Below, one piece after another: positions 11,157-14,470 of a stretch of DNA of 64,000 nucleotides. Origin of the DNA: Desulfurococcus mucosus DSM 2162 (GTDB lineage: Archaea; Thermoproteota; Thermoprotei_A; Sulfolobales; Desulfurococcaceae); the NCBI RefSeq assembly GCF_000186365.1, contig NC_014961.1:1178001-1242000 (forward strand), read 5' to 3'. The notes under the pieces are model-generated. The model did not search any database and was not told where the DNA came from. It was given only the letters and a program-made list of their open reading frames with translations. The position numbers and the translations under genes are program-made. Numbering within the stretch: position 1 is the stretch's first letter; every line of letters begins with the position of its first letter.

Positions 11157-12965
11157 TTAATCAGGCAGATAGTATTCCCCGCGGGCCTTCTGCTCCCTAT
11201 CCATAACCGAGCCAGGCTTATTTATCCTGGGTCTCCCGCTCTCACTATCCCTCCTAACAGTTATGTCTAGTTCCCTGAGCAGCCTATTAAACCCTTCCCT
11301 TAGGCTGACCGGGCTGTGTGCATGGCCCTCGACACCCGGCTTCCCTAGGAAAACCATAACCCTATCCGAGATGTAGTTCTGTACTAGGAGATCGTGCTCC
11401 ACGACCAGCGCGGTCTTACCCTTCTCCTCGACTATTCTACGAATGGTTTTCGCCACACTGATCCTTTCCTCGACATCTAGGTAGGCGGAGGGCTCGTCTA
11501 GGAAGTAGAGGTCAGCGTCCCTGGCGAGCGCCACTGCCACGGCGAGCTTCTGTAGTTCTCCACCGCTTAACTCGTCGACCCTTCTCTCCAGCATCCTGTT
11601 CAACCCGAGCTTCCTCACGAGCTCATGATAGATCCAGGAGGATGGATCCAGGGTTGCCGGCGAAGCCGACTTAAGGTTAGCCATAACGGTCTCCTCGCTG
11701 AATACTCGGGGCGATAACTCCTGTGGCTTAACGCTTATCTTCTCAGCGGATATCAGGACAGCTCCCTCTAATGGCTCAGCCTCCCTGTTGAGGAGTTTAA
11801 GGAATGTTGTCTTACCGACTCCATTGGGGCCAAGTATCCCGAGCACCTCTCCAGTGTAAGCGTCGCCGGGTTCCACTGTGAGCCTGAAGCCTGATGACTC
11901 GTATTGGAAGACCATTGCATCCCATTTAAGCACCGGGTAGGCTCCTGTCTCAGTCTTCCTCTCCTGCACCTGGATTCTGAACCTGAGCTCATCCTCCCTT
12001 ATCCTCATGTTCTCGGCTGGCAGGTATCCTTTCAGATAGTGGTTTATGCCTGTCCTCGTGCCGTAGGGCTTTGACACCACGCCGTATACGCCGGGTTCAC
12101 CGTAGACTACCACTATATTGTCGCTCATGTAGTCCAACACCATTAAGTCGTGTTCAACCACCACCACGTAGTTCCTGGCGTAGTCGCTGAACTCCCTGAT
12201 CACATTGGCCACCCTGATCCTCTCCCTGATATCCAGGTAGCTGCAGGGTTCATCGAAGAAGTATGCGTTACCGTTCTTCACGAGCACGGCTGCGACAAGG
12301 AACTTCTGTAGTTCTCCACCGCTTAACTCGTCGACCCTTCTCTCGAGGAGGTGGGATAGGTTGAGCTCGTCCACTACTTCGCGCCACAGTCCTCTTTCAT
12401 CCGCTCTCACCATGAGTTCTCTCACAGTGCCCTTCAGGATCCTTCTAGCCGCCTCAATGTACTGTGGCTTCACAACCGCTTTGACCTCGCCGCTGGCCAG
12501 CTTCGTGAAGTAGGCTTGGAGCTCGGTGCCCCTGAAGTACTTTATCACGGTGTCCCAGTCAGGTGGACTACTATAGTTGCCTAGGTTGGGCTTCAACTGC
12601 CCGGCGAGTATCTTGATGCTGGTGGATTTCCCCGCACCGTTCCTGCCGACCACGCCCAGGATGCTGCCTGTCCTTGGAGCCGGTAGATTGTATAGTTTAA
12701 ACATGTTTTCCCCGTACCTATGCACCAGTGTCTTCTCTAATTCATCCGGGAGGTTGACTATTGATATAGCGTGGAACGGGCACTTCTTAACGCATATGCC
12801 GCAGCCTATACATGCATCCTCGCTTATCACGACATACTTGTTGTCGCCGCTTAACTCTATGGCCTTCTTCCTCCTCCCCCTGTTCACAGGGCAGAACCTG
12901 ATGCACTCCAGGCTACACTTATCCGGCTTACAGTAGTTTCTATCTACTACTGCAACCCTAACCAT
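11157..12965 (-). CDS. rli1: ABCE1/Rli1 ribosome-recycling ATPase
   Basis: Splits ribosomes after termination together with aRF1 or Pelota (pelA is in this window). The 602-residue protein has two N-terminal 4Fe-4S clusters (CKPDKCSLECIRFCP and CIGCGICVKKCP), then twin ABC domains: Walker A GRNGAGKST and GPNGVGKTT, duplicated signatures VDELSGGELQKF and VDELSGGELQKL, and Walker B FFDEPCSYLD and FLDEPSAYLD. A charged C-terminal extension of about 30 residues follows the second ABC domain. Start is ATG 12965, giving the family N-terminus MVRVAVVDRNYCKPDKC; an upstream in-phase start at 13040 adds unconserved residues. Confidence 0.95.
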   Translation of the reverse strand: MVRVAVVDRNYCKPDKCSLECIRFCPVNRGRRKKAIELSGDNKYVVISEDACIGCGICVKKCPFHAISIVNLPDELEKTLVHRYGENMFKLYNLPAPRTGSILGVVGRNGAGKSTSIKILAGQLKPNLGNYSSPPDWDTVIKYFRGTELQAYFTKLASGEVKAVVKPQYIEAARRILKGTVRELMVRADERGLWREVVDELNLSHLLERRVDELSGGELQKFLVAAVLVKNGNAYFFDEPCSYLDIRERIRVANVIREFSDYARNYVVVVEHDLMVLDYMSDNIVVVYGEPGVYGVVSKPYGTRTGINHYLKGYLPAENMRIREDELRFRIQVQERKTETGAYPVLKWDAMVFQYESSGFRLTVEPGDAYTGEVLGILGPNGVGKTTFLKLLNREAEPLEGAVLISAEKISVKPQELSPRVFSEETVMANLKSASPATLDPSSWIYHELVRKLGLNRMLERRVDELSGGELQKLAVAVALARDADLYFLDEPSAYLDVEERISVAKTIRRIVEEKGKTALVVEHDLLVQNYISDRVMVFLGKPGVEGHAHSPVSLREGFNRLLRELDITVRRDSESGRPRINKPGSVMDREQKARGEYYLPD

Positions 12966-13192: not shown

Positions 13193-13483
13193 TTAATCCG
13201 ACTCCTCGGACTCGCTTTCCTCCTGTTCAAGCTCCTCGAGTAGGACCTCGTAGTACTCTCTAAGTATCTCCCTTTCCTCAGGCGAGAGCTTAGCCTCCTT
13301 GGCCTCAGTGGCCTGCGCGGTTACAACCCTTTTGCTAGCGTCAACCTGGTATTTAACACCATACCTCTCCTTCTTGACATCGGTCTTCGCCTCGTAGCCG
13401 CACCTGTTGCACTTCAGGACTACTTCGTCATCCTTTTTAACTGGTACCAGTGGCCCCCCGCACCTCGGGCAGAACTTGACCAT
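13193..13483 (-). CDS. TFS/RpoM-like protein with N-terminal zinc ribbon only
   Basis: A 96-residue protein starting with a zinc ribbon (CPRCGGPL and CNRCGYEA) that matches the N-terminal domain of archaeal transcript-cleavage factor TFS and Rpb9. The second, catalytic zinc ribbon with its acidic hairpin is missing. Instead the C-terminal half is a linker followed by a helical, very acidic tail (ILREYYEVLLEELEQEESES). It could bind the polymerase lobe without cleavage activity, like the paralogous TFS variants that regulate RNA polymerase in some crenarchaea; that role is inferred. Confidence 0.6.
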   Translation of the reverse strand: MVKFCPRCGGPLVPVKKDDEVVLKCNRCGYEAKTDVKKERYGVKYQVDASKRVVTAQATEAKEAKLSPEEREILREYYEVLLEELEQEESESEESD

Positions 13484-13586: not shown

Positions 13587-13598
13587 GTTTATTTAAAT
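13587..13598 (+). promoter_or_regulatory. TATA box of the Trp/Glu-repeat microprotein gene
   Basis: GTTTATTTAAAT, about 30 bases before the expected transcript start near 13622 and 50 bases before the GTG start. Confidence 0.5.
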
Positions 13599-13645
13599 AC
13601 CCCTCCAATCCCAGAAATAATTGAGATGCGGAGAGGTGCAGCGTA

Positions 13646-13744
13646 GTGAAGCTGTGGCTCGAGGAAGAGTGGGAAGAGGAATGGGAGGAGGAATGGGAGG
13701 AAGAGGAGTGGGAAGAGGAGGAATGGGAAGAGGAAGAGTGGTAG
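13646..13744 (+). CDS. Trp/Glu-repeat microprotein (32 residues)
   Basis: This tiny frame reads VKLWLEEEW and then continues as three- and four-glutamate blocks each closed by a tryptophan, so the whole protein after residue 5 is only Glu and Trp (seven Trp in total). Expression signals are good: TATA box at 13587-13598, GAGGTG at 13633-13638 seven bases before the GTG start, and no other start in phase after an upstream stop. It ends six bases before the end of the convergent gene at 13750. Tryptophans spaced every four to five residues would lie along one face of an acidic amphipathic helix, which suggests membrane, protein or cation binding. I know no characterised homologue. The codons use GAA/GAG alternately, so it is not a simple DNA tandem repeat. 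Confidence 0.6.
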   Translation: MKLWLEEEWEEEWEEEWEEEEWEEEEWEEEEW

Positions 13745-13749
13745 GGCCC

Positions 13750-14259
13750 CTAGACCAGTGCGAGTAGGGCATAAAGGTTTTTTACCAGGAGTCCTGCGCA
13801 ATCCTCGCTGCATAGGGGTGTTTCAACGATTCTACAGTTCCCAGGCTTCCTCACCATGGTGGATACGGCGTGGTCGCTGCCTCCACCCGTGTACACTTTA
13901 ACCAAGTAGTATTCTTCATCCTCCAGGAATCTTTTCTCAGCCTCCTGGAGTAGCGTGGACAACTGTTGATGGCCTGTTGAAAGCATCATTAACAGTAGCC
14001 CCTTGTTCCTGAACCTGGAGAGCTTATCCCCGTATATGGATAAGTGTATTGCTCCCTGAACGATTTGAGAAGGGTTTGACACCATGCTTCTAGGGATTAT
14101 TGATGCAGCACCCTCCAATCCCAGTTCTGAAACCTCTTCGCCAAGGGATCCATGCTTCTTACGGCAGAGATACATTTCCAGGTATATGCTTCTACCGAGG
14201 AAGAACACGCGGTATAATCCGTCTCCGAGGCGGGAGAACTCGAGAATAGTATTCCTACT
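13750..14259 (-). CDS. Hypothetical protein, possibly KEOPS Cgi121-like
   Basis: A 169-residue protein without a clear signature. The central helical block QGAIHLSIYGDKLSRFRNKG followed by LLLMMLSTGHQQLSTLLQEA resembles the core of the Cgi121 (CGI-121/TPRKB) subunit of the KEOPS complex, which helps make the t6A base of tRNA. The match is by pattern only. The ATG at 14257-14259 overlaps the end of the S17e gene, so the two are translated from one mRNA. Confidence 0.5.
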   Translation of the reverse strand, partial: SRNTILEFSRLGDGLYRVFFLGRSIYLEMYLCRKKHGSLGEEVSELGLEGAASIIPRSMVSNPSQIVQGAIHLSIYGDKLSRFRNKGLLLMMLSTGHQQLSTLLQEAEKRFLEDEEYYLVKVYTGGGSDHAVSTMVRKPGNCRIVETPLCSEDCAGLLVKNLYALLALV

Positions 14260-14470
14260 CATGCTTCGCCATGGCCTCACGCTTAGCGCGGACAGCCACG
14301 AGGTGTGTAACGTATCCCGCTATAAGGTTCCGTATCTTCTTTGACCGGGTTTCAACCAGCTTAGATACAACTGTCTTATTATGCTGGAAGTCACGTGTGA
14401 ACAGCTCCGGGTACTTCTCCAATAGCTCGCGTGCAGTCCTTTTGACAACCCTTATCCTAACCTTGCCCAT
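14255..14470 (-). CDS. rps17e: Ribosomal protein S17e
   Basis: Small-subunit ribosomal protein found only in archaea and eukaryotes. The 71-residue sequence has the family pattern MGKVRIRVVKRTARELLEKY, FTRDFQHNKTVV and SKKIRNLIAGYVTHLV. It starts the operon with the following unknown gene, overlapping its ATG. Confidence 0.93.
   Translation of the reverse strand: MGKVRIRVVKRTARELLEKYPELFTRDFQHNKTVVSKLVETRSKKIRNLIAGYVTHLVAVRAKREAMAKHE

Follow-up and report, generated by a model that had tools for sequence, protein, structure and literature searches.

Archaeal microproteins made almost only of glutamate and tryptophan form a conserved family whose genes are linked to abce1

Does a 32-codon reading frame that encodes little besides glutamate and tryptophan represent a gene and, if so, what could its product do? 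The question is raised by an ORF on the forward strand of Desulfurococcus mucosus DSM 2162, at positions 13646–13744 of the window (the whole 64,000-nucleotide stretch of DNA analysed here). It starts with GTG, stops with TAG, and its translation is VKLWLEEEWEEEWEEEWEEEEWEEEEWEEEEW. Beyond the first five residues (VKLWL) the predicted protein, here called the E/W protein, consists solely of Glu and Trp. The seven Trp residues stand at positions 4, 9, 13, 17, 22, 27, and 32, that is, with spacings of 4–5 residues. There is no Gly and no Cys, the net charge is strongly negative, and both GAA and GAG are used. The composition, the spacing, and the codon mixture noticed in the initial annotation are therefore exact on translation, and so are the expression signals it had described. 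A TATA element (TTTAAATA, 13592–13599, forward strand) matches the archaeal consensus perfectly 54 nt upstream of the GTG, and a Shine-Dalgarno sequence (GAGGTG, 13633–13638, forward strand) lies 7 nt before it. Comparable TATA elements are present in orthologues, and GGTG or GAGGT occurs at Shine-Dalgarno distance in 56 of 110 named homologues, against 2.5 expected from control windows. Downstream of the stop codon a run of six T residues (13778–13783, forward strand) is a weak candidate terminator.

A chance origin of the ORF was considered and found no support. The DNA pattern for W-EEE(E)-W-EE occurs four times in the window, always within 13646–13744, and is missing from all 100 dinucleotide shuffles. 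An Rfam scan of the window recovered only RNase P, SRP, 5S, and tRNAs, with no match at the E/W locus.

Comparison with relatives showed that this ORF is a real protein-coding gene under strong purifying selection. Between the window genome (G000) and a second genome of the same genus (G001), the 28 codons compared carry 14 synonymous and 0 non-synonymous differences. The probability of 14 out of 14 under neutrality, with a transition bias of 4, is about 7e-10 to 1e-9, because at most about one quarter of random changes in GAR codons are synonymous even when transitions are strongly favoured. In other close groups the changes in the core are likewise mostly synonymous GAA/GAG swaps, and indels among orthologues are in-frame. 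Maintenance of a purine tract does not explain the sequence, since the equally purine-rich codons for Lys, Arg, and Gly are near-absent from the core. Selection on the protein, which had first been read from the varied codons, is thus upheld: the changes are synonymous only, the indels keep the frame, and the protein is conserved from family to family. When conservation in relatives was checked, orthologues were found throughout the order and beyond, so the objection that the ORF is not conserved fails.

Proteins of this type were found in at least 33 families of the phylum to which the window belongs, the breadth of the named genome scan being a lower bound. Strict DNA patterns gave matches in 123 of 229 genomes of the class and in 100 of 398 genomes of the phylum; a reversed control pattern was rare in the class scan and gave none among the phylum matches listed. 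Relatives found by DNA similarity bear the same kind of ORF. The matches listed include Desulfurococcales, Sulfolobales, Pyrodictiaceae, Thermofilum, and Thermoproteales, together with Bathyarchaeota, Brockarchaeota, Methanomethylicota, Nezhaarchaeota, Culexmicrobium, and Thermococcus. Bacterial pattern matches (L119, L135, L156, L191, and L194) were set aside; one of them, L119, forms the acidic end of a larger protein. A form built of Asp, Glu, Trp, and Phe, typically with an N-terminal PPKKKK-like stretch, is present in 63 of 115 genomes of the Thermococcus phylum; it resembles the E/W proteins in character and is perhaps homologous to them. The microproteins of this form at loci L355–L362 mostly start with M[QS]PPKKK-like residues, and their genes adjoin moeA-like and RNase H-like genes. 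In some of the genomes of that phylum the pattern is matched twice, at sites apart from each other. Two E/W paralogues (L338 and L348) were also seen in one genome (G192), one directly 5′ of abce1 and the other elsewhere, and same-genus relatives of G192 keep a non-adjacent copy.

Glu makes up 70% and Trp 18% of the residues in the named set's 99 non-redundant cores. In the sampled set the median length is 28 residues, and Trp followed by the stop codon is the usual ending. As patterns that contain TGG-stop bias the last residue, the C-terminal tally was redone on 41 members gathered mostly without requiring a terminal Trp: 35 end in Trp, three in Phe, and three in other residues, and the penultimate residue is Glu in all 41. 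The third residue from the end is Glu or Asp in all 99 non-redundant members, and the window protein ends in EEW.

No significant Pfam or NCBIfam family was found for the window protein or for two divergent members, and a sequence search of the PDB, with phmmer, which is weak on such compositions, returned none for three members. A full-text search for the strings WEEEEW and EEEWEEE gave matches confined to two papers on plant NAC proteins. The E/W microproteins are a new, unnamed, and widely conserved archaeal family, which low-complexity filters and length cut-offs have probably hidden from Pfam, NCBIfam, and the PDB.

The gene neighbourhood gave the main indication of function. Gene calling around the 110 named loci, followed by all-against-all BLAST, placed abce1 within three genes of the E/W gene in 76 loci, and in 56 of these it is the next gene on the same strand. 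It is the only neighbour common to distant lineages, as the others change by lineage. In Desulfurococcales we take these others to be a phosphoribosyltransferase, FBPase, and TIM, with S17e also there; in many Bathyarchaeota they are presumably an isoaspartyl peptidase and a cytidine deaminase. The neighbour in Brockarchaeota appears from its sequence to be an ABC-transporter ATPase, and that in Methanomethylicota and Nezhaarchaeota a THUMP-like protein. Within the window, abce1 (Rli1), which encodes the Fe-S ATPase that recycles ribosomes and splits them, occupies 11157–12965 on the reverse strand. Its product has Fer4_RLI and ABC_tran domains and scores 867.8 bits against NCBIfam NF009945 (ribosome biogenesis/translation initiation ATPase RLI), the cut-off being 469.

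No more than 1.5 kb separates the E/W gene from abce1 in 65 of the 94 genomes tabulated, where some E/W start coordinates are approximate to tens of bases, and in 25 of 33 families (21 of 29 once families found only by abce1 anchoring are dropped). A random gene would be expected this near by chance in about 0.3% of genomes. Linkage of the E/W gene to abce1 thus extends across lineages and suggests that the translation machinery has a partner not recognised before. The linkage is not universal. The gene is far from abce1 in f4, f26, f38, f53, f64, f34, most of f25, and the Thermococcus phylum, and several f1 genomes have it 2–6 kb away.

A second gene recurs at this site. The reverse-strand ORF at 13193–13483 encodes a 96-residue TFS-like zinc ribbon with an acidic tail, which scores just above the cut-off of Pfam Zn_ribbon_RPB9 and below that of NCBIfam TFS_arch. 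It frequently stands between the E/W gene and abce1 and recurs across families; because it recurs beside both, it may be linked to translation or recycling rather than act as a transcript cleavage factor. The reverse strand at 13750–14280 has a 176-residue ORF with no Pfam or NCBIfam match, and in 14 related loci the E/W gene adjoins an ORF of about 167 residues from one sequence cluster, to which the window's ORF may belong. In G001 (L002, C1:5375–6267) an inversion, with respect to the TFS-like gene and abce1, covers the E/W gene, the 176-residue ORF, and S17e.

Most often, in 56 of the 65 linked genomes, the E/W gene comes shortly before abce1 on the same strand, usually as one operon, with 42–60 nt between the two in several families. 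This arrangement could point to a translated leader peptide, whose acidic, Trp-ending nascent chain would stall or destabilise ribosomes and so autoregulate abce1 in cis. We consider that reading very improbable. In eight of the 65 linked genomes, the window and seven others, the two genes lie on opposite strands, and where the E/W gene is on a different contig or kilobases from abce1 its sequence character is unchanged. For the window, where the gene has its own TATA box and Shine-Dalgarno sequence on the strand opposite abce1, the leader reading is already contradicted, and this arrangement argues for action in trans. That the sequence character is kept despite changes of strand, orientation, and location argues likewise, so the product probably acts in trans.

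Of the functions put forward initially, binding to a basic partner is the most plausible, with ABCE1 or its ribosomal complex as the partner that the neighbouring genes indicate; the ideas of a sensor of Trp supply and of a membrane-binding peptide did not hold up, and together we regard them as hardly credible. Both draw on the seven Trp among 32 residues. A Trp sensor would be expected 5′ of Trp-regulated genes on the same strand, but the neighbours here are abce1, the TFS-like gene, and S17e, and no Trp-pathway gene is among the recurrent neighbours at the 110 named loci. Attenuation would also lack a target, since the gene that follows lies on the opposite strand. Membrane binding is disfavoured by the strongly negative net charge and by the aromatic period, which is 4.5–5.1 residues (z up to 9.5 versus shuffles) with no signal at 3.6. 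Such a period is more in keeping with short motifs in repetition than with a coiled coil or an amphipathic helix. AlphaFold, run on the homologue alignment, predicted one long helix (pLDDT 93.6). We give that model little weight, because poly-Glu is readily predicted as helical and an amphipathic helix would call for a different aromatic period.

Of the analogues, the best studied is the N-terminal acidic motif of eIF3j/Hcr1. The human peptide lacks structure when free and is extended when bound, a hydrophobic pocket receiving Trp52 while the acidic residues face Lys and Arg (PMC2824034). eIF3j/Hcr1 is also the accessory factor of ABCE1 in eukaryotes and assists recycling (PMC7196836). On these two precedents and the gene linkage, we propose that the E/W protein may be a multivalent acidic-aromatic ligand, acting in trans, of ABCE1 or of the post-splitting 30S complex. 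Several Trp-Glu motifs would bind ABCE1 or the ABCE1-30S complex; Trp side chains would dock into hydrophobic pockets, the surrounding Glu would contact basic, rRNA-facing surfaces of ABCE1 or of the ABCE1-bound 30S subunit, and the microprotein would thereby modulate the binding or release of ABCE1. Archaea are not known to have eIF3, so the pocket cannot be the one that eIF3j occupies. That the protein binds, where it does so, and what this does to recycling are all inferred, and we make the proposal tentatively, at somewhat under an even chance.

The analogy with eIF3j has clear bounds. Trp embedded in acidic residues is common to both, but eIF3j has a further C-terminal half, whereas the E/W protein of the window is 32 residues in all, nearly the whole of it Glu and Trp, and homology is not demonstrable. 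eIF3j docks on a basic surface of the RRM of eIF3b, which is absent from archaea. For eIF3j a partnership with ABCE1 is documented (PMC7196836), while for the E/W protein there is gene linkage.

Against a ligand of ABCE1 stand the families in which the E/W gene is remote from abce1, and the several groups in which it was not found, including f6, f7, and the tested f18 genomes, all three of which have abce1. The linkage could also be what is left of an old operon, with no function in common. In that case the protein might be a general acidic chaperone, or a nucleic-acid mimic, for basic proteins such as ribosomal, chromatin, or RNA-binding ones. Its extreme acidity and aromatic content would suit such a role, as would the tolerance of variable Trp spacing. 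So would the genes that several families and the Thermococcus phylum have at a distance from abce1, some of whose products carry a Lys-rich N-terminus. What makes this role unlikely in our judgement is that abce1 stays linked where the other neighbours are replaced from one lineage to the next; for a mimic, moreover, one Trp per about five residues is by our own reading unlike the spacing of bases.

The conserved C-terminus brings up a further possibility, that the terminal Trp, like that of Lto1, brings in the machinery that delivers Fe-S clusters, here to apo-ABCE1. In eukaryotes the Yae1-Lto1 adaptor serves Rli1 maturation, and the C-terminal Trp of Lto1, Phe in some species, is required for Fe-S insertion into Rli1 (PMC4523923). 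The linkage to abce1 agrees with such a role, as does the last residue, which is Trp or Phe in 38 of the 41 members and always follows an acidic residue. The eukaryotic motif (TCR), however, is [LIM]-[DES]-[WF], and the E/W members have Glu or Asp where it has [LIM]. That motif is reported to be confined to clients of the CIA machinery and missing from the archaeal orthologues compared (PMC10623007). The deca-GX3 repeat of Lto1 is also absent from the window protein, which has no Gly, and the many internal Trp would be left unexplained. An Fe-S adaptor is accordingly quite improbable.

Two other groups of small proteins resemble the family in part. DSS1/Sem1 is a small, very acidic hub protein that contains Trp and Phe, as the E/W proteins are acidic with Trp or Phe; but no link of the proteasome or BRCA2 type was seen here, and the archaeal proteins usually end at Trp. 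The LysW/ArgW carriers are short archaeal proteins with an acidic, Trp-containing C-terminus. One locus (L157:5592–5843) encodes a LysW-like zinc ribbon with a C-terminal E/W tail (EEEEWEEEEEEEWDEWEEEEW), abce1 not being adjacent. The window protein differs from LysW in having no N-terminal zinc ribbon (it has no Cys), and the LysW tail differs from its EEW ending. As the E/W protein lacks a defining feature of eIF3j, of Lto1 and the CIA motif, and of LysW, we place it in no known system. A bolder form of our proposal, in which it would be a dedicated microprotein cofactor of ABCE1 in archaeal recycling, the functional counterpart and possibly the evolutionary root of the acidic-aromatic hub peptides exemplified by the eIF3j motif and DSS1, seems rather unlikely to us.

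It is surprising in itself that selection should keep a two-letter sequence in archaea of different phyla, and the case shows that a widely conserved gene family can escape Pfam, NCBIfam, and the PDB. The E/W protein offers a natural minimal model of how acidic-aromatic disordered peptides bind at high temperature. Its linkage to abce1 provides a concrete, testable candidate for a missing cofactor of archaeal ribosome recycling, and is relevant to the regulation of ABCE1 before there was an eIF3.
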